From: a virus
Length of the DNA: 62,808 nucleotides
Strand: one strand, 5' to 3'
Virus record (IMG/VR): IMGVR_UViG_3300044568_000638
Location: 1-62,808 of that record
The notes under the pieces are model-generated. The model was not told the DNA's origin and made no database searches. It saw only the letters and a list, made by a program, of their open reading frames with translations. Positions 3,157 to 52,984 of the stretch are shown in pieces. A program made the position numbers and the translations under genes. Numbering within the stretch: position 1 is the first letter of the stretch; every line of letters starts with the position of its first letter.

Positions 3157-5028
3157 ATGTCATTAACAAAAGTAACACCAAATCTTATTCTTGGACTTGC
3201 TGCATCGGCAACAACAGACACAACAAATGCGTCAAATATTACAACAGGTACATTGCCTAACGCAAGAACTACGGCAACAAGCACAAATTCAGCAAATGCA
3301 ATTATCGCAAGAGATATTTCTGGTGATTTTAAAGCATCATCAATAAATCTAATTCCAATTTCTAGGGGAGGAAATAGCATTCTTACAAATACAGCAGTTG
3401 GATTATCTTCTTTAGCAACAAATATAACTGGTTCAGACAATGTTTCTGTTGGAGTTCAATCATTGTATTTAAACACAATTGGATCAACAAATATATCTGT
3501 TGGAAATGTTTCTTTATCTAAAAATACATCTGGAGGACAAAATGTAAGCATTGGACAGGGATCAATGTTTGCAAATACGCAAGGTTCTGCAAATGTTTCT
3601 GTTGGACTTGAAGCACTAAGCAATAACACAACAGGAAATCAAAATGTTGCTGTTGGTGCTCAAGCATTAGATAAAAATACAACAGCTTCACTTAATACTG
3701 CAATTGGAACACAAGCATTATATTCAACAACAATTGGGTCTAATAATGTTGGCATTGGTCGTACTTCAATGTATTCAAATACAACAGGAAATCAAAATGT
3801 TGCTGTTGGAAATAATTCACTTATTACAGGTGTAGCTTGCAATCAAAATGTATCTATTGGATATAATTCATTAGCTGGTTTACAAAGCGGTTTTGGTAAT
3901 ACTGCTGTTGGTTTTGAAGCAATGGGAAATGCTACAACTGCACAATTAAATATTGGAATTGGCACTCAATGCTTGGGTAATTCTTCTTCAACTGGAAACA
4001 CTATTATTGGTAATTTTTCAGCAAATGGTGCAACTACTGCTGCAAACAATGTTTCAGTTGGGTCAAATTCAAGTAAATTACTTTCAACAGGAAGTGAAAA
4101 TGTTTCGGTTGGTGTAGAAGCAATGTATGGCAACACAACAGGAGGTCGAAATGTTGCTATTGGAGCCATTGCTTTGAATAAAAATACAGCTTCAGCTAAT
4201 ACTGCAATTGGATATAGTTCTTCATACAACAATATAACAGGAACAAATAACGTATCTGTTGGATTTAGTTCGCTTAATTCTAATATAACGGAATCTGGAA
4301 ATACATCAATTGGAAATTATTCGTTGAATATATTTAATTCTGGCGAAAATAATACTGCAATTGGATATCTGGCTGGTAGTCTTTTGTATAATGCAACAAA
4401 TACAACGTGTTTAGGATATAATGCACAAGCAACCGCAAGCAACCAAGTAAGAATTGGAGACTCTAATGTAACAGCAGTTGTTTCTCAAGTCGGATCTTGG
4501 TCTGATGCAAGAGATAAATCTGATGTTAGAGATACAATTCTTGGCCTTGATTTCATTAAAAAAGTTAAACCAGTAGACTACAAGTGGGATTATAGAGAAG
4601 ATTATAGATCTGAATTTCCAGAAATTGAATTTCCAATTCAACCTTCAGAACCATCAAAAATTGGTGATTCAGATGAAGATGTCATTAAATATAACGAAGA
4701 ATATTCAAAATATCTTAAAGATTTAGAATTATATGTTTTAGAAAAACAAGAATACGATAAAAAATCAAATGAATGGAATGAATCTGTAAAATTAAAAAAC
4801 ATCGTCAAGGATGGAAGTAAAAAAAGAAACAGATACCATCATGGAGTTCTTGCTCAACAAATCCAAGAAATTATTCAAGAAACTGGAGTTGATTTTGGTG
4901 GATTTCAAGATCATTCAATGAAAGGATGGGAAGATTCAATGAGTATTGGGTATATTGAATTCATTGCTCCAATGATTAAAGCCATTCAAGAACTATCAGA
5001 AAAGATTGAAAAACTTGAAGAAAAATAA
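3157..5028 (+). CDS. YadA-head-like tail fibre with C-terminal S74 chaperone
   Basis: 623 residues. The N-terminus (MSLTKVTPNLILGLA) is short and differs from the collagen fibres. Residues 80-430 are about 24 repeats of the 'NTTGSQNVAVGxxAL' type, the trimeric beta-roll seen in YadA heads. From about residue 447 (SDARDKSDVRD) an S74 intramolecular chaperone follows, with the same RYHHGVLAQQIQ and [16 protein letters not shown] blocks as the fibre ending at 2498, but with an extra charged insert of about 45 residues. It should assemble as a trimer and release its chaperone by autocleavage at Ser-Asp. Having two fibres with related chaperones suggests two receptor-binding proteins. Confidence 0.85.
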   Translation: MSLTKVTPNLILGLAASATTDTTNASNITTGTLPNARTTATSTNSANAIIARDISGDFKASSINLIPISRGGNSILTNTAVGLSSLATNITGSDNVSVGVQSLYLNTIGSTNISVGNVSLSKNTSGGQNVSIGQGSMFANTQGSANVSVGLEALSNNTTGNQNVAVGAQALDKNTTASLNTAIGTQALYSTTIGSNNVGIGRTSMYSNTTGNQNVAVGNNSLITGVACNQNVSIGYNSLAGLQSGFGNTAVGFEAMGNATTAQLNIGIGTQCLGNSSSTGNTIIGNFSANGATTAANNVSVGSNSSKLLSTGSENVSVGVEAMYGNTTGGRNVAIGAIALNKNTASANTAIGYSSSYNNITGTNNVSVGFSSLNSNITESGNTSIGNYSLNIFNSGENNTAIGYLAGSLLYNATNTTCLGYNAQATASNQVRIGDSNVTAVVSQVGSWSDARDKSDVRDTILGLDFIKKVKPVDYKWDYREDYRSEFPEIEFPIQPSEPSKIGDSDEDVIKYNEEYSKYLKDLELYVLEKQEYDKKSNEWNESVKLKNIVKDGSKKRNRYHHGVLAQQIQEIIQETGVDFGGFQDHSMKGWEDSMSIGYIEFIAPMIKAIQELSEKIEKLEEK

Positions 5029-5029
5029 T

Positions 5030-5434
5030 ATGCCATACACTAAAGAAAAAGCTAAGATGCCAGAAGGGTTTCACGACCTTGGAGAAGAACTTAAATCCAT
5101 TTCTATTTCAATGGGGGATGATGAAGGAAATGATGAATCCCCTAGCATTCATTACCCATCGTTGTATTTTGAGAATGCTGAAGCATTGAGCAAACTTCCA
5201 AAAGAAGGAACTGCTACCATTTATTTTAAAAAAGCAATGGAAAAAAAAGAAACAGTGATGCGTGATGGAAAAGAAACAAAACGGCATTGCGTTGAGCTTT
5301 GTATTTGTGGAATTAAACCCAAAGGCGCAAGCAAAATGGAATCCACAGCAGAAAAAGAAGATCCAGAAGATGCTATTGAAATGGGACTAGCTGAAGCTGG
5401 CGAATCCGAATCCGAAGAATACGAGAAAGACTAA
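5030..5434 (+). CDS. Acidic conserved phage protein
   Basis: 134 residues from ATG 5030, which directly follows the fibre stop; a longer in-frame start upstream would overlap that gene. It is acidic, with a block 'LSKLPKEGTATIYFKK' and a charged C-terminus. Proteins with this block sit beside tail-tube genes in other phages, but their function is not known. The C-terminal part contains DAIEMGLAEAG, which resembles the C-terminal tag of the scaffold (DAIDLGLDEAG); this could be chance in an acidic tail. Confidence 0.6.
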   Translation: MPYTKEKAKMPEGFHDLGEELKSISISMGDDEGNDESPSIHYPSLYFENAEALSKLPKEGTATIYFKKAMEKKETVMRDGKETKRHCVELCICGIKPKGASKMESTAEKEDPEDAIEMGLAEAGESESEEYEKD

Positions 5435-11900: not shown

Positions 11901-12236
11901 ATGCCAAGTATTATTGACGCTTCATTAAAGATAACAGAATTCCCAAATAGATTTGTATCTCCATTTAAGGATGATCCAATAATTCCACTTTATTCATCAG
12001 TACCAATAAAAAACAACATAAAAGGATGTGTTCCATGTGTTGTGTGTGGTAATTTTTATGAAAGAAACAAAATAATACAGCAAGAAGCGGATAGGTTTAA
12101 AGATTATCTACCATATGAAAGTGAAATAACTGTAGGTATTTCTCAAACTGTATTGCCGCCGCCACCGCCACCGCCACCGCCACCACCACCGCCACCGCCT
12201 GCTGATTTGTATGTATTGTTTGTTAATTGGGAGTAA
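11901..12236 (+). CDS. Small protein with CxxC and a polyproline run
   Basis: 111 residues, 1 base after the upstream stop. It has a 'CVPCVVC' cysteine cluster near residue 48 and ends with 14 consecutive prolines followed by a short hydrophobic tail (ADLYVLFVNWE). The prolines are encoded by a CCG/CCA microsatellite at about 12157-12200 that could vary by slippage. The family is unknown; the place among tail genes suggests a virion part. Confidence 0.5.
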   Translation: MPSIIDASLKITEFPNRFVSPFKDDPIIPLYSSVPIKNNIKGCVPCVVCGNFYERNKIIQQEADRFKDYLPYESEITVGISQTVLPPPPPPPPPPPPPPPADLYVLFVNWE

Positions 12237-12238
12237 TT

Positions 12239-13519
12239 ATGATTTTAAATAGCTCATTAAAAGAACAAATACACAATATTTTTATTTCCAAAAAAGACAC
12301 TGGAATAAATAGTGTTTATATTGGTTACAAATATGTAAATGGTGTTAAAACAAATGAAATAGGTCTTGTTTTTGGTGTAAATAAAAAGATTTTAGAATCA
12401 GATTTACCAAAAGATTATATACTTCCAAAGCAAATTAATTTAAATGGGAATAATGTAAAAACAGATGTGGTTGTAACTCCTGAAGTTAAATTAATGTCAT
12501 GTTATCCATCAGGTGATCCAAATATAACAAGACTTTTATCCGTTCCAGAAGCACCAACTCCATTAAAAGGAGGAATGCTGATAAGGCAATTTCCTACAGG
12601 GTGGGTGCGTGACCCTATTAATCCTAACGCATATAGTTTTAATGTTGGAACACTAGGTTTTTTTGCAAAAGATAACATAGATGGAAGAGTTGTTGGTGTT
12701 ACAAATAGACACGTTGCTGTTTATAATGGTGAAATTGCAGGAGAAGCGGATCTTAATCAGCAATTAAATAACCCAGATAATACTGGTGAAAAAATAACAT
12801 GGATTGTTGATAGTCAAAAATATCTTCCAAGCGCATCAATTTCTGCTGGAGTTTCGTTTAATACTATTGCATTTGAGGGGATTAAAAGATATACTCCTTT
12901 TTATTATAGTCAACCAAATTATACTGATTCAGCTTTAATTATTCCAAAACTAGGATACGTTGATAATAATTCATATCAAGTATGGCAACCTATAGATCAA
13001 CCAACTTACCCAACATCATTGCCGTTTGCAACAACAGAAGAATTAGATGGAATTCTTATTTCAAATCCTAAAGTATATTGTACTGGAGTTACAAGTGGGC
13101 CTATTGGATGGGGAACTGGTAATTGTAGTATAAATATACTTGGAATTGGTTATAGCACTGTTATATCTTTAAATGGTAAAAACACAACTTGGTCAGATCA
13201 AATAACTATGCAAACACCATTAGGAATTACTCCACTGGCTTCTGGTGATTCTGGATCTTGCGTTATGGCTGATATTGGTGGTGTTAAAAAAATAATTGGA
13301 TTATTCTTTGCTGGAAATAATGATTTTGCTGTATTTAATAGAATTGACAAAGTTGCGAATGAGATGAACATATCTGCGTTTACAACACCAATAGATACAT
13401 CAATACCATCATTAAAGCTTTATTCAGCTTCATTGTCTGAATATGGAAATTCTAAAACAATTTCTGTAAATGGAAAAACATATTATCAATCTGGATTAAC
13501 AAAAAATATTTATACATAA
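12239..13519 (+). CDS. Trypsin-like serine protease in the tail cluster
   Basis: 426 residues; ATG 12239 lies 2 bases after the upstream stop. The sequence shows a chymotrypsin-fold triad in the right order: His158 in 'VGVTNRHVA', Asp230 in 'NYTDSALII' and Ser338 in 'LASGDSGSCVM'. The GDSGS block is the standard nucleophile motif. About 100 residues precede the catalytic domain and about 75 follow it, and there is no signal peptide. Chymotrypsin-like proteases are rare in phage tail operons. It may process virion proteins during assembly or act on the host surface; the sequence does not decide this. Head-maturation proteases of phages are usually of other folds. Confidence 0.65.
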   Translation: MILNSSLKEQIHNIFISKKDTGINSVYIGYKYVNGVKTNEIGLVFGVNKKILESDLPKDYILPKQINLNGNNVKTDVVVTPEVKLMSCYPSGDPNITRLLSVPEAPTPLKGGMLIRQFPTGWVRDPINPNAYSFNVGTLGFFAKDNIDGRVVGVTNRHVAVYNGEIAGEADLNQQLNNPDNTGEKITWIVDSQKYLPSASISAGVSFNTIAFEGIKRYTPFYYSQPNYTDSALIIPKLGYVDNNSYQVWQPIDQPTYPTSLPFATTEELDGILISNPKVYCTGVTSGPIGWGTGNCSINILGIGYSTVISLNGKNTTWSDQITMQTPLGITPLASGDSGSCVMADIGGVKKIIGLFFAGNNDFAVFNRIDKVANEMNISAFTTPIDTSIPSLKLYSASLSEYGNSKTISVNGKTYYQSGLTKNIYT

Positions 13520-13913: not shown

Positions 13914-14855
13914 ATGGGTGGAGCAAAAACAGTCAACGCAAGCAGCTACATTAGCAAACCTGATTCGTCTAGGGACATAGCTATTCTTATGGCTATGCAG
14001 CAAGCCCAGATGGGGCAGCAAGCACAACAAGCTGCATTGATGAAAGCTGCGTCTGAGATGCCTCCACAGCAACAGACTTATGATCCAATGCAAGAGTCTA
14101 AGCGTCTTGCAGAGATTGGGATGGGTAATATCCAAAGAGCAAGAGAGCTTGAAAAACAAACATCTCCAGCTGCCGCTGCAATGCGTCAAGCTCAAGCTAA
14201 AGAACTAGCTACATTAACTTCTCCAGAAGGAACTAATCAATACATTAATGAATGGGCTAAACGCCAAGGACTTATTCAAGGCTTTGAAACTGGTTTACAA
14301 GATTCAAGTATTGGAAGATCTGCAACATATGATTCCGCATTAAAAGCAAGGCAAAACTACGAACAACAAAATCTAGCATTGCAACAACAGTTGTTGCAGC
14401 AAATGCAAGCCCCAGTTGGTGGAATTGATCCAACATCATCTATTGCTGCCCAAGAATCCGTTAAAGGTCAAAACTTGCAATCAATGCAAAATTGGCAAAA
14501 TGCAATGTATGGTAATGTTGGTGGATACAATCAATCTGTAGCTGACCAAATGGCGCAAATTGGAACTGCCTTCCAAAATACACAGCAGACAGCAGGGCAA
14601 AATCAGCAAAATTATCAAAATGCAATGATGCAAAATCAAGCTCAAAACTATGCAGCCAAGAATGCAATGAATTCAGCATATTTACAAGCTGCTGGAAGTG
14701 TTGCTCAAGGAGCAATTAGTGGGGCTGCTGGAGCTTATGGTGGAGCTGGAACTGGAGGATTTGGATCACAATCAGAAATGTTAAAACATACTGCACCCGG
14801 AACAACTGGGTCATATAATGCTGGAATGGGATGGGTTCCCCGTGCTGCTGTATAA
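13914..14855 (+). CDS. Gln/Ala-rich internal virion (ejection-type) protein, paralog 1
   Basis: 313 residues, starting 2 bases after the upstream stop. N-terminus MGGAKTVNASS belongs to a set of MGG-starting virion proteins in this genome. The body is helical and rich in Gln, Ala and Met; the C-terminus has a glycine-rich membrane-like stretch (AAGSVAQGAISGAAGAYGGAG). It shares 'IGRSATYDSA' and 'GIDPTSSIAAQESVKGQNLQSMQ' with the next gene, so the two come from a tandem duplication. The composition and place after the tail-tube genes fit podovirus DNA-ejection proteins. Confidence 0.6.
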   Translation: MGGAKTVNASSYISKPDSSRDIAILMAMQQAQMGQQAQQAALMKAASEMPPQQQTYDPMQESKRLAEIGMGNIQRARELEKQTSPAAAAMRQAQAKELATLTSPEGTNQYINEWAKRQGLIQGFETGLQDSSIGRSATYDSALKARQNYEQQNLALQQQLLQQMQAPVGGIDPTSSIAAQESVKGQNLQSMQNWQNAMYGNVGGYNQSVADQMAQIGTAFQNTQQTAGQNQQNYQNAMMQNQAQNYAAKNAMNSAYLQAAGSVAQGAISGAAGAYGGAGTGGFGSQSEMLKHTAPGTTGSYNAGMGWVPRAAV

Positions 14856-16820: not shown

Positions 16821-17285
16821 ATGGGAGGCAAGAAAAGCGCACCAAAACCAGAACCTAAACCAAAAATTGATCCAATGATGGTTTATTTGCAACAACAACA
16901 AGTTCAGCAAGCACAGCAAGCCGCTGCTTCTGCTGAAGCTCAACAAAAAGCGTTGATGCAATCGCAAATTCAAGCTGGAGCGCAAGCTGAACTAACTGGC
17001 GAGCAAGCTGCAAAACAAGGATTGGCAACCGCTGAATCAATGCAGTCCATTCGTGACGCAAACGCACTTCAGTCCGCTCAAACGGCTGCATCTACATCAG
17101 GACAACAAGTGACAGGTGGTGGATTTGACGTTAATGCTGCACGTCAGCAGGCTTTAACTAATCTTGGAGCTGGAACATCAATGATTCCACAAACTCCAGC
17201 AAACATTGGTGCAATGGGACAACCCAAAGCAGCTAATATGTTCTCGCTTCCTCAATCATCCGATCTAAAGTTCGGTGGATCTTAA
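16821..17285 (+). CDS. Gln/Ala-rich MGG virion protein
   Basis: 154 residues. It starts MGGKKSAPKPEPKP and then runs into Gln/Ala-rich helices (QQQQVQQAQQAAASAEAQQKAL). An AAAAGGAAAATAAT leader gives one of the clearer Shine-Dalgarno sites in this genome. The 82-base gap before it (16739-16820) is AT-rich and may hold a promoter, but I see no good -35/-10 pair. It is probably an internal or ejection protein. Confidence 0.55.
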   Translation: MGGKKSAPKPEPKPKIDPMMVYLQQQQVQQAQQAAASAEAQQKALMQSQIQAGAQAELTGEQAAKQGLATAESMQSIRDANALQSAQTAASTSGQQVTGGGFDVNAARQQALTNLGAGTSMIPQTPANIGAMGQPKAANMFSLPQSSDLKFGGS

Positions 17286-40091: not shown

Positions 40092-40349
40092 ATGAAAGCA
40101 ACAATTGAATATCAACTACCCGAAGAAGAACACGACATGAAATATGCGTTGGCAGGGGTTGACGCATTGCTAGTGTTGGATGACATTAGCAACGAGATAA
40201 GGAGTTATTTAAAGTATGGAACTGGCGAATTACGACAGTTTGTAACAGAAGAAGGGAAGGAATGCCCTGCTTGTAGTGAGACTCTTGAAATGGTTACGGT
40301 TTGGATTTGGGAGAGACGCAGAGAAAGGAATCTTCCTGACTTAATTTGA
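40092..40349 (+). CDS. Small conserved hypothetical protein
   Basis: 85 residues. It contains 'EHDMKYALAGVDALLVLDDISNEIRSYLKYG', a pattern seen in other phages just upstream of the terminase, and a CxxC (CPACSE). The stop overlaps the TTG start of the large terminase. Function unknown. Confidence 0.6.
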   Translation: MKATIEYQLPEEEHDMKYALAGVDALLVLDDISNEIRSYLKYGTGELRQFVTEEGKECPACSETLEMVTVWIWERRRERNLPDLI

Positions 40350-45290: not shown

Positions 45291-46250
45291 ATGGGTGGAG
45301 CTAACACAGTAAAAGGAAATTGGGTAACAGAAAAGAAAACGCCACAAGCGTTGGGTGATGATAATCTTGCTAAAAATCCAGAATTAGCTAGACCATATAT
45401 TGATTTGACAATGTTTGGGAGAGGGAAACAAAATGTTTCTTTAAGTGAGATGATTGCTCCATATTATGGTGGAGAAGAGACATTGAAATCTGAGATTGAA
45501 AAAGCAAAAGCGTCTTCTTTAGAAGACAAGACAAATGTTTTTAATTCTCCTGCTATTTCACATAATTTAGGCATGAAGATGGATTATGATAAAATTGGAG
45601 AAAAAATTCCAGTTTCTTCAGGCGATTATAACTCATCATATAGCCGAACAAATAAAGATATTAAAATTACAGATCCATATAAGTCTGCATCCTCAATCAG
45701 GGAAATTCTTAATTTAGAAAAATCATCCAACCCACAAGATGTAAGAAATTTTAGTAAATTTTTGCAAAAAAACAATTACACAAAACAAGAGTTAGAAAAA
45801 TCAATTGAAAATCCTATAAGTGATTTCATTGGAGTCCTTGAACATGAAGTTGGACATCATTCAGCTAAAGGAAAAGATATAGAAGAAAGTTTATTTGGAG
45901 CAACGCACATGGATAAACCCGTTGAGTTGGCAAATCAATTGGGACGAATTCAAAGAGAAGCGTTTTATTTATATGGAAAGCGGTTTACTCCAGAAACACT
46001 CACTGATTTTATGGAGCAACAAAAAGTTGTTCCAGATAATGAAAGATTTCAAAACTTTTCTCCAGATACAAGACGTGGATTAAGGAAGATCTTAGATTTA
46101 CATACATCACCATCTGATTCTGATTATAGAGATTATCAGTATGTGAAAAAAGTGATTCCAGAATTTGTAAAAACTAAAACTAAACCAATGTCTTCATACG
46201 ATGCAATAAATGCAGGATTAGAAGAAAGCATTAAACCTACATCTGCGTAA
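45291..46250 (+). CDS. MGG-tagged zincin-like metallopeptidase
   Basis: 319 residues from ATG 45291, 1 base after the portal stop. The helix 'DFIGVLEHEVGHHSAKGKD' has an HExxH zinc motif at residues 185-189, with acidic residues in 'PVELANQLGRIQREAFYLYG' that could be the third ligand. The first residues MGGANTVKG and the last block 'PMSSYDAINAGLEE' are shared with the next two genes. It is next to the portal, so it is probably packaged in or on the head, and may be ejected or process proteins. Activity is not certain. Confidence 0.55.
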   Translation: MGGANTVKGNWVTEKKTPQALGDDNLAKNPELARPYIDLTMFGRGKQNVSLSEMIAPYYGGEETLKSEIEKAKASSLEDKTNVFNSPAISHNLGMKMDYDKIGEKIPVSSGDYNSSYSRTNKDIKITDPYKSASSIREILNLEKSSNPQDVRNFSKFLQKNNYTKQELEKSIENPISDFIGVLEHEVGHHSAKGKDIEESLFGATHMDKPVELANQLGRIQREAFYLYGKRFTPETLTDFMEQQKVVPDNERFQNFSPDTRRGLRKILDLHTSPSDSDYRDYQYVKKVIPEFVKTKTKPMSSYDAINAGLEESIKPTSA

Positions 46251-46251
46251 T

Positions 46252-46815
46252 ATGGGAGGATCTAACACAGGAGTAAAAGCAAGTTATGTTCCAGAAGGAC
46301 AAAGCTCTGGATATAATAATGATTTTTATGACTGGTCAAAGAACATGGGTAAATATGAAAAGCAAAATAACCCATTAAAACCAAGTGCTTTTGTTTACGA
46401 AGAATCAAAAGCCCCACAAGTTACTGCAACAAGCCCAGTAGATAGAGCTTCGGTTTATTCAAAACCAGTTCAAGTTGACAGAGCAAGAGTTGTTCAAAAA
46501 GGATTTAATCCAGAAGAAGCGCAATACGATTACTTGACTGCTGAGAAAGCTGGAATTAAACCTAATGATTACAACAAGCATATGGGATCAGTTGCTCCAG
46601 TAACTGAAGAACTTTTCAATAAATATAAAGAATATGGACTGCCTGAAGGAGAGGCATACGTTATCCTTAAAGGAGCAAACCATCCAACACATAATTACAC
46701 GGTTAAAGCAGAAAATGAACGTGGATTTGAAATCAAGAAATTCGGAGACAGATATTTCTCTGTACCTAAACAAAAACCAACGTCATCATATGACGTAATC
46801 AACACAGAACTATAA
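46252..46815 (+). CDS. MGG-tagged head-associated protein
   Basis: 187 residues, 1 base after the previous stop. It starts MGGSNTGVK and ends 'PTSSYDVINTEL', a decayed form of the tag 'SSYDAINAGL'. The middle is hydrophilic with no recognised domain. Same gene block as the zincin, so it may share its packaging route. Confidence 0.5.
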   Translation: MGGSNTGVKASYVPEGQSSGYNNDFYDWSKNMGKYEKQNNPLKPSAFVYEESKAPQVTATSPVDRASVYSKPVQVDRARVVQKGFNPEEAQYDYLTAEKAGIKPNDYNKHMGSVAPVTEELFNKYKEYGLPEGEAYVILKGANHPTHNYTVKAENERGFEIKKFGDRYFSVPKQKPTSSYDVINTEL

Positions 46816-46819
46816 TACT

Positions 46820-47086
46820 ATGGGCGGACTAAACACAACACAAGGCGGAACTAACCAAGCAAAACGAGACAGACTAGAGTTTGAAAAAAACTTTAAAGGA
46901 AATCCTCCTCCAATGTCAGAAGAGGAATTGGCAACCTATGCTCGTTTTGATGCTCAATCTGATGGAGCTAATTCTTATAAAAGATCAGCGTCTGTAATTG
47001 ACCCTGCATCTGTGATTAAGAAAAATCAAGAATTGCTTAAAAAACCAATGTCTTCTTACGAAGCTATTGACGTTGGTCTAAAATAA
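46820..47086 (+). CDS. MGG-tagged small head-associated protein
   Basis: 88 residues. It starts MGGLNTTQGG and ends 'PMSSYEAIDVGLK'. It is little more than the two terminal tags joined by a charged linker, which makes it useful for defining them. Third copy in tandem after the portal. Confidence 0.55.
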   Translation: MGGLNTTQGGTNQAKRDRLEFEKNFKGNPPPMSEEELATYARFDAQSDGANSYKRSASVIDPASVIKKNQELLKKPMSSYEAIDVGLK

Positions 47087-47113
47087 GGAAACAATAAATA
47101 AATAAATAATATT

Positions 47114-47353
47114 ATGAAATGGACTAGCGCAGACAGCGTTGTTTTACGGGAATATTTAATCAAATCTAGCAATAAATTAATAGAGTATTACCGTTCACGC
47201 ATTCCATTGTGTGACGGGAAGACTATTGAGGAAGTTGCTCTTCAAGCCAAGTTCAAAGAAGGCTTTGAATTCGCTATTCGCGAACTGCGAGACTTGTCTT
47301 CTATGGACGAAGAAAACCAAGACGCATCAGTAGGAAATTTCACATCAATGTAA
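47114..47353 (+). CDS. Small hypothetical protein
   Basis: 79 residues after an AATAAATAAATAAT leader. Mixed helix with 'VVLREYLIKSSNKLIEYYRSRIP' and an acidic end. No family recognised. Confidence 0.5.
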   Translation: MKWTSADSVVLREYLIKSSNKLIEYYRSRIPLCDGKTIEEVALQAKFKEGFEFAIRELRDLSSMDEENQDASVGNFTSM

Positions 47354-47359
47354 AAATAA

Positions 47360-47515
47360 ATGAGAACAAAACAACAAGGTCTATACGCAAATCTTAACGC
47401 TAAACGCGAAAGAATCGCTGCTGGCAGCAAGGAAAAAATGAGGAAGGTTGGATCTAAAGGCGCACCAACTGCTAAAGCATTTAAAGAATCAGCAAAAACA
47501 GCAAAGAAAAAATAA
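47360..47515 (+). CDS. 51-residue basic protein
   Basis: Lys/Ala-rich (ends KTAKKK). The stop overlaps the next ATG (TAATG). Predicted helix, possibly nucleic-acid binding. No family recognised. Confidence 0.5.
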   Translation: MRTKQQGLYANLNAKRERIAAGSKEKMRKVGSKGAPTAKAFKESAKTAKKK

Positions 47516-47757
47516 TGGAAAAAAGATTTGCTAAAGTAGTAAAAAATCCAGAAACAGGAAGGACTAAGACTGTCAAGTTTGGTCAGGCTGGAAAGGCTAA
47601 AGATGGAGGGGATCGAATTCGCCCCGGCACAGCTAAAGGAGACGCTTACTGCGCTCGTTCAGCTGGAATTAAAGGCGACTGGAAATCAGATCCCAATAGT
47701 CCAAATAATTTAAGTCGCAGAAAATGGAAGTGCATAGGCAGAAAATCAGCAAAGTAA
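47515..47757 (+). CDS. Small basic conserved phage protein
   Basis: 80 residues. 'RPGTAKGDAYCARSAGIKGDWKSDPNSPNNLSRRKWKCIGRKS' matches a small protein often found with phage head genes (GxAYCxRSxxI.GDW.sDPNSPNnlSRrkWkC, DUF6321-like). Function unknown. The cysteines could bind metal. Confidence 0.7.
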   Translation: MEKRFAKVVKNPETGRTKTVKFGQAGKAKDGGDRIRPGTAKGDAYCARSAGIKGDWKSDPNSPNNLSRRKWKCIGRKSAK

Positions 47758-47804
47758 TTTTACCGAATAGTAAAAATACATAATCCCAATAAAAATATAA
47801 AAAT

Positions 47805-49073
47805 ATGACAGACACAGATGACAACGTAGTAGAACCAGACGTAACAGGCTTTGGTAATCCTAGCCTCAACTCAGATCCAATAGATGAAGATACATCCTCA
47901 CAAATTGATTCACTCCTTGATGAAGCTATCGGAGAAACTACTGAAACGATTCAACCTCAAGTGGAGGAATCCGCACAGGAACCAGATGGCATTCTGGACG
48001 AGCCTGTCGCTCCAACACCTGTTGAGCAAACAAGTGTCGCAGAAACTGCAACACCCACCCCAGTTGTTCAAGAACCTAAAGTTGAAATCGACCCCGAAAT
48101 CGCCGCTATCGAGCAGCCTCGTAATCTTTCGGAAAAAAATCAAAGTAACTGGCGAAAACTTCAAGAAACCGCATCAACATACAAACAGCAAGCCGCTGAA
48201 GCCGAAATTCTGCGTCAACGTCTCGCTGAAGCCGAAGGTAATCGTGCTGAAACCCCGAAAGACTACGACGAACTCAAAAAGTTCCGTGCGATCTTCGATA
48301 TCAAAAATGACCCAGAGTTCAAAAGCAAATACGTTGAGCCGATCCAAAACGCCAAAGAAAGCGTCTACAACATCCTCCGCAAGCATGGCGCGGGTGACGA
48401 AGTAATCAAGTCAATTGAGGCTGCTGGAGGCCCAACAAGGGTTGCTGATGATTTCTGGAGGCAAGATGCTTTTTCAAAGCTCCCACTAACGGATTCCGAA
48501 CGTCTCAAGCGTGGTCTTGTTGACGTATCTGACCTACAAGAAAAACAAGAAGCTGAAATTGCTAATGCTGCTGAACACGCTGAAGAAATTCTTGTTCAAC
48601 GTGAAACTGTAAATAAAGAATGGTATGATAATACAGTTAAAGACATTGACAATACCATTGACGAAATCACTAAAGAATTGCCGTGGGCTAGATATGCTGA
48701 ACCAGCACCTAATGCAACTCCAGAGCAACTTATTCAGATTCAGAAACACAATGAGACAGTTTCTGGTCTTGCACAGAAGTTTGAGTCAGCACTATGGCCT
48801 ACAACAGCTCAAGAACGAGCAAATGTAGCCGCATCTGCTGTGTTTTCCCATGTGCTAACAGAGCAACTTCGCACTGAACAAGCTCAGAAAAGCGCATTGA
48901 TGCAACAGATTAGTCAATTGACTAATGAAAACAATAAACTAAAGGGATCATCCAAGATTCCAAAGCCATCAATTAATACTCCAGCAAGTAACAAGCCAAG
49001 TTCTATGCACGACCGCATTAAAATGAATGCTTCTGATGCAATTGACCTCGGTTTGGATGAAGCTGGATCTTAA
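47805..49073 (+). CDS. Scaffold protein
   Basis: 422 residues, acidic and mainly helical, lying between the portal group and the major capsid gene as scaffolds do. An N-terminal Pro/Thr/Glu-rich linker is followed by coiled-coil helices (EAEILRQRLAEAEGNRAE...). It ends 'MHDRIKMNASDAIDLGLDEAGS'. That C-terminal part, where scaffolds bind capsid, resembles the C-terminal tag of the MGG proteins (SSYDAINAGL). Assigned by place, composition and lack of any enzyme motif. Confidence 0.65.
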   Translation: MTDTDDNVVEPDVTGFGNPSLNSDPIDEDTSSQIDSLLDEAIGETTETIQPQVEESAQEPDGILDEPVAPTPVEQTSVAETATPTPVVQEPKVEIDPEIAAIEQPRNLSEKNQSNWRKLQETASTYKQQAAEAEILRQRLAEAEGNRAETPKDYDELKKFRAIFDIKNDPEFKSKYVEPIQNAKESVYNILRKHGAGDEVIKSIEAAGGPTRVADDFWRQDAFSKLPLTDSERLKRGLVDVSDLQEKQEAEIANAAEHAEEILVQRETVNKEWYDNTVKDIDNTIDEITKELPWARYAEPAPNATPEQLIQIQKHNETVSGLAQKFESALWPTTAQERANVAASAVFSHVLTEQLRTEQAQKSALMQQISQLTNENNKLKGSSKIPKPSINTPASNKPSSMHDRIKMNASDAIDLGLDEAGS

Positions 49074-50394: not shown

Positions 50395-50970
50395 ATGAAA
50401 CACAAGATTTACTCTTATTACGAAAGCATTCAGACGTTGCCTCAAGCAGAGCAATTCGCTTGTGCTAATTGGTGGAAGACATCGTGGGAAAAAAATGGAT
50501 GGGATTGCGTGATGCTAAACAAGTCCCACGTTGGAGCATCCAATCTCCACACAAAACTCGTTTCAAAGCTAGGGAAAGTTCTCCATATACTTCCTGACAA
50601 CTTGCGAGGTTATTATCCACAGCTAGTCGCTCGTTATCTTCGCTGGTGCGGTCTTCACGCCGCTGGTGGTGGGTGGATGTCTGATTACGATGTCGTTAAT
50701 CTTGGATTTACTCCATCTGACGCTATTCCTTATCAAGGTGAGTTAAACATGATAACTGATCGTCCGTGCTATCTCTTTTATGCAAGTCAAGAAAATTGTG
50801 CAGCGGCTATTCACAAGTTTATCTCGGAAGAATTCATCCTTGATGGATTGTTGAAAAAAGAGTCCGATATTCTCAACATAAAAGATAGACTATCTGCTAT
50901 CAGTGATAAAGTTCGTCACATTGATAAAAGTGACATTCCTAAGTCAGAAGTGATGGCATCTTTGATGTAA
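50395..50970 (+). CDS. GT32-like glycosyltransferase
   Basis: 191 residues, ATG right after the previous stop. 'QLVARYLRWCGLHAAGGGWMSDYDVVNLGF' holds the DxD site and Gly-Gly turn of GT32 (mannosyltransferase OCH1-like) proteins. It is short for a full enzyme but has the core. It is probably coupled with the GT-A enzyme for adding sugars in turn. Substrate unknown. Confidence 0.65.
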   Translation: MKHKIYSYYESIQTLPQAEQFACANWWKTSWEKNGWDCVMLNKSHVGASNLHTKLVSKLGKVLHILPDNLRGYYPQLVARYLRWCGLHAAGGGWMSDYDVVNLGFTPSDAIPYQGELNMITDRPCYLFYASQENCAAAIHKFISEEFILDGLLKKESDILNIKDRLSAISDKVRHIDKSDIPKSEVMASLM

Positions 50971-51588: not shown

Positions 51589-51834
51589 ATGACTCCGTGG
51601 AAGTCACAGAATCCACAAACAGGCCGTATTAACAAGCCCAACGTGCCGGGGCGAACAAACAAGAAAATTGTGCAAAATTGCAATGCGATTCCATGCACAC
51701 TTGAATGTCGCCCAATAGATCTTCTAAAGGGTCGGTTCAAGCAGAACAAACCTAAACAAACAAACAAAACAGAAAACAAATATTATGGCTCAAGAATGTA
51801 TCCCACTAGCGACAATTCAAAATTTCGCTTCTAA
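51589..51834 (+). CDS. Possible small leader protein overlapping the capsid gene
   Basis: 81 codons, basic, Asn/Lys/Pro-rich, overlapping the capsid gene by 50 bases in another frame. The first half has a plausible sense composition, but the last part is forced by capsid coding. It could be a leader peptide or chance. No family recognised. Confidence 0.25.
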   Translation: MTPWKSQNPQTGRINKPNVPGRTNKKIVQNCNAIPCTLECRPIDLLKGRFKQNKPKQTNKTENKYYGSRMYPTSDNSKFRF

Positions 51835-52984
51835 AGACGTAAATCGTATCATCGGTCAGATCGCTAAGGTCTTGGCTCGCAAATCCCCATACATCAACTC
51901 GATTGATGGTGGAACCCTTCCATCCGTTTCGGACGTTGTTCGTAGCGTGGTTGAGGAAATGGCAGTTCCTGCCGCAAGCCTCGCTGCTCCTACCTTCGTT
52001 AACGACACGGGTCTTTGTGGTGTCGGTGCAACCCCTGACGTTGTTGGCTCGACTGAGTATCAGTTTCAACTCCAGACCCTCCGTGGTGCTGGCCCTCGCG
52101 TTTGTGTAAAACAAGCTCGCACCGCCTTTAAGGGTTCCTACCTCCAAGCTCAAGTTTCTCTTGAGAAAACAATCCTTCAGATCATCAATGCTGACATCCG
52201 TTATCAATACTTGATTCAGTCTGGTATCAAATACGTTGTCAACAGCACATTCTCGTTTGGAAATAACCTCACGGGTGATATGCAGCAGATCAACACCCAG
52301 TTCGCCGCGCATCTCCCCGATGCACAGATGAACTTCAAAACCCTCTATCGTATTGGCACGTTCCTCCGCGAAGAGATGCTTGCAGAACCTTTCGCATCGA
52401 AAGATGGAGAGTTCTTCCAAGTTCTTGCTTCCGCTGATCAGATCGAAGCCTTCCGTAACGATGCAGACGTAAAAGAAGACTTGCTCTATCTTACCGCTGG
52501 ATCGTTCAAATTGGGTGATGAGTCCATTTCTGGCTATCAGTTTATGGGTTATCGTGGTTTTGCTTTCGGTATCGACCAACAGCCACTTCGCGCAAGCGGT
52601 TTCGACGGCAGCGGCAACCTCGTCCTCGTAAACCCAATCGTCAGCACCGCTGTTACGAATGGTTTTGCCCAACGCCGCAACCCAGCTTGGGTAGCTGCTG
52701 AGTATGAAGTCATGTTCGTTATCGGTGGTGAAGCATTCAAACGTCTTGTGCCTGAACAATACGTTGGCGAAGGAACCTTCCGTTTCGCTCCTCAACTCGC
52801 TATGGGTGAGCTGGAGTGGACGTATTTCCGGGACAACGATTGCAATCTTTATGGTGATTTCGGTCAGCATATTTATCAAATCCAACGCGCTATTCAGCCA
52901 ATCCGCCCACAGAACGTGTGCGCCATTGTCTACAAGCGTTGCCCATTTGATGGCAATCCCCTTCCTTGTTCAACTGAACTGTAA
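51785..52984 (+). CDS. Major capsid protein
   Basis: 399 residues after an A-rich leader. It is a soluble alpha/beta protein without enzyme motifs, lies after the scaffold and portal and before the head-fibre genes, and carries the strongest codon bias in the genome (C-ending codons such as TTC, AAC, CGC, CTC), as expected for the most abundant virion protein. 'AFKGSYLQAQVSLEKTILQIINADIRYQYLIQSGIKYVV' may be the spine helix of the HK97 fold. The family was not identified by sequence. Confidence 0.75.
   Translation: MAQECIPLATIQNFASKDVNRIIGQIAKVLARKSPYINSIDGGTLPSVSDVVRSVVEEMAVPAASLAAPTFVNDTGLCGVGATPDVVGSTEYQFQLQTLRGAGPRVCVKQARTAFKGSYLQAQVSLEKTILQIINADIRYQYLIQSGIKYVVNSTFSFGNNLTGDMQQINTQFAAHLPDAQMNFKTLYRIGTFLREEMLAEPFASKDGEFFQVLASADQIEAFRNDADVKEDLLYLTAGSFKLGDESISGYQFMGYRGFAFGIDQQPLRASGFDGSGNLVLVNPIVSTAVTNGFAQRRNPAWVAAEYEVMFVIGGEAFKRLVPEQYVGEGTFRFAPQLAMGELEWTYFRDNDCNLYGDFGQHIYQIQRAIQPIRPQNVCAIVYKRCPFDGNPLPCSTEL

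Follow-up and report, generated by a model that had tools for sequence, protein, structure and literature searches.

Proteins encoded between portal and scaffold in an uncultured phage lineage end like their own scaffolding protein: a candidate tag for loading cargo into the procapsid

For many phages, the route by which DNA-accompanying proteins get into the head is not known. In phage T4, the capsid-targeting sequence is N-terminal and is removed by the prohead protease. The T4 internal proteins form a highly diverse set with only this targeting sequence in common (PMC3012670). In P22 and herpesvirus, coat protein is bound by the C-terminal ends of the scaffolding proteins (PMC12005531). The same holds for phage 80alpha, where CpmB of SaPI1 binds alike through its matching last 16 residues, and where the C-terminal domain of the scaffold can be replaced almost fully by that of CpmB (PMC5644958). 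Here, we analysed a single virus record of 62,808 bases (IMG/VR record IMGVR_UViG_3300044568_000638; its whole length is called the window), in which three adjacent genes in the island between the portal and scaffold genes encode proteins with different middles (A, B, and S) and a common C-terminal tail, the tag, that resembles the tail of the scaffold of the same phage. This tail is kept as a protein sequence, is carried by unrelated middles, is placed terminally, and is restricted to three protein classes of one lineage. The simplest reading joins CpmB-type coat binding with T4-type diverse cargo, and we lean modestly towards it: the tag would mimic the coat-binding scaffold tail and load exchangeable cargo into the procapsid, to be ejected later with the DNA.

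In the CpmB/80alpha system, a second protein copies the coat-binding C-terminal end of the scaffold, a short amphipathic helix plus the end itself (PMC5644958), and here as well the tagged C-terminal ends resemble the scaffold end of the same phage (21 of 22 scaffolds by a position matrix made from the island tags). In contrast to that system, the RIIK hook is absent from our aligned scaffold ends and tags, the carriers are many, phage-encoded, and have folded middles, and coat binding is proposed by analogy. As in T4, a short conserved peptide links otherwise diverse proteins (nine tagged architectures here), but the T4 sequence leads into the scaffolding core, whereas our peptide is C-terminal and scaffold-tail-like. 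Encapsulins also use a short, usually C-terminal peptide to dock unrelated cargo inside an HK97-fold shell, with adjacent genes (PMC7355545); the setting here is instead a viral head with terminase, portal, scaffold, and tail genes, and the peptide copies a scaffold tail and has a different sequence. In herpesvirus, a scaffold and an enzyme (UL26.5 and UL26) have the same coat-binding last 25 residues (PMC12005531), although these come from overlapping genes, whereas here separate genes share a short motif. Finally, polyvalent proteins combine zincin-like peptidase and kinase domains, show domain shuffling, and are predicted to be packaged and injected (PMC5512222), but they carry 2 to 15 domains per chain, compared with one or two small modules and a common end tag in our case. 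Each element has precedent; the combination, a modular island encoding proteins that end like the scaffold of the same phage, we did not find in the literature searched, a selection that falls short of a full review.

Protein A starts with MGGANT and ends with KPMSSYDAINAGLEESIKPTSA, protein B starts with MGGSNT and ends with KPTSSYDVINTEL, and protein S starts with MGGLNT and ends with KKPMSSYEAIDVGLK. Their middles differ, and what they have in common is an MGGxNT head and a (M/T)SSY(D/E)(A/V)I(N/D)x(G/E)L tail; the best short matches among them cover the last 14–19 residues (50–71% identical) and the first 15–30. The original prediction, which had proposed a capsid-entry tag from these peptides, had located them correctly in A, B, S, the scaffold, and an acidic protein encoded from position 5030. 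These five are the only proteins in the window with a convincing tail core. The tag codons read TCT TCA TAC GAT GCA ATA in A, TCA TCA TAT GAC GTA ATC in B, and TCT TCT TAC GAA GCT ATT in S, and most third codon positions differ. Since the tags differ at most synonymous positions, their likeness has been kept at the protein level and does not come from recent DNA copying, and a recent gene duplication or DNA-level repeat is ruled out. Protein S had also been described as almost only two tags, which proved too simple, as its family has conserved inner motifs of its own (GMS repeats and PNxFGRD).

The scaffold ends with RIKMNASDAIDLGLDEAGS and shares the core DAI(D/E)xGL with the island tags. Alignment of 22 scaffolds revealed a variable linker followed by a near-invariant R(I/L)(K/R)M...DAI(D/E)xG(L/I)(D/E)EA end, and the island tags and their linkers are arranged in the same way, with a varying linker and an invariant end. 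In nine aligned protein A sequences, KPxSSYDAIxxGL is invariant but for the x positions, and its immediate flanks vary. Homologues of the acidic protein likewise have a variable tail save around DAI(D/E)xGL. The motif expected near the end of this protein was indeed there, but an acidic stretch comes after it, so it is no strict C-terminal tag: EDAIEMGLAEAG ends 10 residues ahead of the stop of 5030–5434, and the DAIEMGL core ends 14 ahead. The acidic protein, whose gene adjoins the head-closure gene, had no Pfam match and may use the scaffold-tail site too. A ChaB-like identity, considered at first, was abandoned on reading the sequence.

IMG/VR was searched with the capsid protein and the portal (80 and 70 loci, respectively), and 25 whole or near-whole relatives were fetched. 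Proteome counts refer to these 25 genomes plus the window and are approximate, since genes were called by a simple longest open reading frame (ORF) rule. The core was found near the C-terminus of 21 of 22 scaffolds, 15 of 18 acidic proteins, and 12 of 22 island proteins with an MGG start (MGG proteins), as against none of 71 other MGG proteins and one of the 1526 remaining proteins, this single positive being itself an island protein that starts with MGSS. When the last 30 residues of 60 non-redundant island MGG or MGSS proteins were shuffled, the core appeared in 0.0175% of shuffles, compared with 31/60 observed. The regular expression for the core was composed after the tags had been seen, and a matrix scan and two pattern scans depend on it only in part. 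A position matrix derived solely from island tags was run over all proteins, and 21 of 22 scaffold tails and 16 acidic-protein motifs exceeded the best reversed-protein score (12.0); other matches above this value were nearly all internal. Among sequences scoring in the matrix, SDYDV(V/L)NLGF (gene at 50395–50970 and relatives) lies about 86 residues from the end and was therefore discarded as a tag. In 2.9 million viral contigs, the DNA pattern for SSY(D/E/N/K)AI(D/E/N/K)xG(L/F) was found in 31 stretches. Six of these are unrelated; the other 25 come from this lineage, and in each the tag lies 0–9 residues ahead of the end of an island MGG protein. The corresponding scaffold-tail pattern gave 53 stretches, every one in a sequence bearing a homologue of this scaffold. 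Chance likeness of the C-terminal ends is ruled out by the shuffles, the background counts, and the matrix scan. A tag not conserved beyond this genome, which the original prediction had accepted as a refutation, is excluded by the related genomes and the pattern scans; the motif search that it had suggested for other phages returned 25 island-protein tags, confined to this lineage.

Portal–scaffold islands start with an MGG or MGSS protein in 56 of 86 cases, and their content differs between close relatives. Modules A (zincin), B, C, D, E, and S (small) compose most of the 60 non-redundant island proteins, and a dozen hold none of them. Tagged proteins have nine architectures (A, B, B-C, B-S, D, D-C, D-S, S, and S-D), in addition to two unassigned tagged proteins; the tag rides on at least four unrelated middles. 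Several island proteins, such as B-C, D-C, and D-S, join two modules in one chain. Each tagged protein, fused ones included, has one strict tag at or close to its end. Fused proteins that retain a second MGG at the inner junction have no inner tag, and in L089:8625, where S and D stand in reversed order, the single tag is still at the end. Among tagged proteins, S is the most frequent, and B, C, D, S, and E also exist without the tag. A conserved gene for a protein of 79 amino acids (aa) marks the end of the tagged part: 37 tagged MGG proteins lie upstream of it, and none of the 13 MGG proteins downstream is tagged (Fisher P = 4e-4, only a guide because it was counted on related loci). As a separate observation, the islands at L092:3437 and L100:13149 contain an untagged insert of 210 aa that by eye is GIY-YIG endonuclease-like and perhaps mobile.

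The proposal had treated head and tail as one tag, a view that we dropped since the MGG head also stands on untagged island proteins and on a module past the tail genes. In the fetched genomes, MGG starts fall in these two places, island and post-tail module, and otherwise on scattered ORFs. The 71 non-island MGG proteins, mostly post-tail, have no DAIxGL tail. Judged by this distribution, the MGG head is a feature separate from the tail tag. In relatives, the post-tail module holds several MGG proteins, 2–3 of which per genome (16821–17285 in the window; L155, L165, and L215) have a second shared C-terminal end, FxLPxxxxLxFGG, that could be another docking tag. From its position and composition, the post-tail module is probably an ejection module.

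Table 1. Coordinates in the window of the tagged proteins, the scaffold, and related features.
Feature	Position	Strand	Basis
Acidic protein, 134 aa, EDAIEMGLAEAG near end	5030..5434	+	Alignment of 18 homologues
MGG-headed post-tail protein without DAIxGL tail	13914..14855	+	
MGG-headed post-tail protein with a different shared C-terminal end, FSLPQSSDLKFGGS	16821..17285	+	
Portal protein, 803 aa	42878..45289	+	Gene order terminase–portal–scaffold–capsid; conserved in 70 IMG/VR loci
Island protein A, 319 aa, probable zincin-like metallopeptidase, MGG head and C-terminal tag	45291..46250	+	H185/E186/H189/E212 invariance; structure model
Protein A tag, MSSYDAINAGL	46188..46220	+	Model helix over residues 302–313, low confidence
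Island protein B, 187 aa, MGG head and C-terminal tag	46252..46815	+	
Protein B tag, TSSYDVINTEL	46780..46812	+	
Island protein S, 88 aa, MGG head and C-terminal tag	46820..47086	+	
Protein S tag, MSSYEAIDVGL	47048..47080	+	
Conserved 79-aa gene, end marker of the tagged island part	47114..47353	+	
Scaffolding protein, 422 aa	47805..49073	+	Gene order and composition; alignment of 22 homologues
Scaffold tail, MNASDAIDLGLDEAGS, resembled by the tags	49023..49070	+	
Major capsid protein, 399 aa, proposed docking partner of the tail	51785..52984	+	Low-confidence structure model

Among the tagged middles, protein A contains HEVGH at residues 185–189, and H185, E186, H189, and the downstream E212 were invariant in the nine aligned sequences. 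As HExxH plus a downstream glutamate is the ligand pattern of zincin-like peptidases (PMC5512222), protein A is probably a zincin-like metallopeptidase. It had no Pfam match, and Foldseek alone found no match with a useful score for its model. In this model, the core is folded, the ends are disordered, and a helix spans the tag. The PDB chains at Z of 2 or more were jannalysin (4jix), selecase (4qhg), IrrE, and one unrelated chain; three of these four are zincins, among them minigluzincins and IrrE, at Z values of only 2.0–2.5. A role of the zincin as a maturation protease was rejected as the main explanation, since it is present in merely 10 of 86 islands.

Family libraries were almost silent for the island proteins, and the matches obtained were the following. 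A Kinase-PolyVal domain (E 1e-8) was found in an untagged MGSS island protein (L030:2004-2987). Domain E, which is always untagged here, matched DNA transfer proteins of Aeromonas phage 4_4512 and Escherichia phage Bas106 as well as structural proteins of SPN1S-like phages (all E 1e-4 to 7e-3). Domain D matched a small protein of Acinetobacter phage Acibel007 whose gene lies between those for endolysin and terminase (E 6e-10) and, in a Pseudomonas phage, the end of a protein of 685 aa. One domain of L074:4067, which has the tag-like end SADDEIEMELRKSE, matched a crAss-like phage structural protein (E 9e-4). By these matches, the island holds domains tied to ejected or virion proteins.

Regarding the proposed docking partner, the capsid gene lies about 5 kb downstream of the island. 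When its structure model was compared with the PDB, the 46 best re-aligned entries were phage head entries, with Z up to 7.5 (under 8) and alignments mostly covering about residues 105–390; matches included the heads of cyanophages, P22, T4, T7, and phi29. This low-confidence model supports a resemblance to HK97-fold capsid proteins. PDB sequence searches with the capsid and scaffold profiles gave zero matches. An antisense open frame of 359 aa overlaps most of the capsid gene (window 51806–52885, minus strand) and is probably a by-product of codon use.

These results can be arranged into a model in which the stretch between portal and scaffold would serve as an exchangeable cargo island. A helix-forming S-S-Y-D-A-I-x-x-G-L would end unrelated middles and copy the C-terminal tail of the phage's own scaffold. 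By analogy with other phages, the scaffold tail would bind the inner face of the capsid shell during procapsid assembly, and cargo with a scaffold-like tail would dock at the same coat sites and be enclosed. After departure of the scaffold, the cargo would remain with the DNA, and its zincin and other domains would act once ejection had brought them into the host. We infer capsid binding, packaging, ejection, and host action of the tagged proteins from these analogies, all tests being based on sequence and two structure models, one of low confidence.

Several findings weigh against this model. About half of the island MGG proteins have no strict core; untagged forms include stand-alone B, C, D, and E and the whole of one S subclade, which has lost the tag. 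The core is therefore not needed for island location, and the tag cannot be regarded as universal. The ties to delivered proteins are direct for untagged (domain E and kinase) or tag-like (L074:4067) members, and those of strictly tagged members are indirect. In addition, the acidic protein motif stops short of the very end and is missing from one homologue, and the capsid model is of low confidence (predicted template modelling score, pTM, 0.56). Despite these points, a capsid-entry tag taken from the scaffold tail is the best-supported part of the original prediction, because the tail occurs on the scaffold as well, has been kept at the protein level, is carried by unrelated domains, is present as a single end copy, and is confined to the scaffold, acidic, and island proteins of one lineage, and because the island includes domains with ties to injected or virion proteins; what did not stand is the inclusion of the MGG head and the universality.

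Four other explanations were considered. The tail might bind the portal or a portal–scaffold nucleation complex, gathering small proteins at the portal vertex and helping portal assembly or ejection without loading anything into the shell. The tagged genes immediately follow the portal and never lie past the 79-aa gene, and the P22 scaffold has a C-terminal hook of which several copies sit on the portal surface (PMC12005531). However, it is coat protein that the scaffold C-terminal end binds in P22, 80alpha, and herpesvirus, and gene order accounts for the neighbourhood equally well; we consider this explanation unlikely. Less probable still are CpmB-like accessory or competing scaffolds that would occupy coat sites, adjust the size of the shell or its timing, and depart together with the scaffold instead of staying as cargo: varied middles, one of them a probable peptidase, speak against them, and island content that changes among close relatives fits cargo better than an assembly part, even though the commonest tagged protein is the small S and the sole clear precedent for a copied scaffold C-terminal end redirects size (PMC5644958).

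The common ends could also be a relic of module shuffling within one gene family, now without function. Fused proteins, inner MGG remnants, and domain swaps point to frequent recombination in the island, and some members lost the tail without evident cost. Yet the tail is invariant in nine zincins with variable flanks, is retained despite changed codons and, in L089:8625, at the end when module order changes, and is also found on the scaffold, which is outside the family; our estimate for a relic is lower again. Finally, recognition of the tail by a protease, chaperone, or degradation factor, for instance to remove the scaffold before packaging, is very improbable. Such a signal would suit the presence of the tail on three protein classes, one of them not quite terminally, but not the identity of the carriers (scaffold, head-closure-adjacent protein, and portal-linked island) or the background of 1/1526, as a general signal would be expected on other phage proteins.

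If the tag does load cargo as a scaffold-tail mimic, a signal of about 10 residues, readable from sequence, would point to where docking is likely, at the site that the scaffold uses. The injected proteins of a widespread uncultured lineage could then be listed from sequence alone, other phages could be searched by a simple rule (proteins ending like the scaffold), and a short portable tag would be available for loading proteins into phage-derived particles. More tentatively, and with chances that we put just short of even, the island would be an open cargo-loading system, in which a domain placed between an MGG head and a coat-binding tail copy would be packed and ejected, and anti-host or entry functions would be swapped without touching the structural genes.

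The gene order from position 40,346 is large terminase, a 193-aa gene, portal, three MGG proteins, three small genes, and scaffold, and a few further genes separate the scaffold from the capsid protein gene. The large terminase matched phrog_2 (E 1.6e-10). Portal, scaffold, and capsid protein had zero known-family matches in library scans and were therefore named by their order. Relatives of the capsid protein, portal, zincin, and protein B were absent among 50,697 cultured phage records, as were those of domain C, and a search of bacterial and archaeal genomes with the capsid protein to find a host gave no relatives. The sole piece between portal and scaffold that matched cultured phages at the DNA level was a 51-aa gene past the tagged genes (47360–47512), with 70–80% identity to marine podophages.

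Other features were noted along the way. One 71,431-base contig (G017; L203–L206) contains terminase, portal, and scaffold twice, the two sets coming from two subclades and reflecting either a chimeric assembly or a true double module. In the tail module of the window, a 430-aa protein (12227–13519) contains GDSGSC and by eye resembles chymotrypsin-type serine proteases. The two repeat-rich proteins encoded at 363–2498 and 3157–5028 are probable tail spikes: the former has collagen-like GATG repeats and an end that by eye resembles that of the latter, which carries a Peptidase_S74 chaperone domain.

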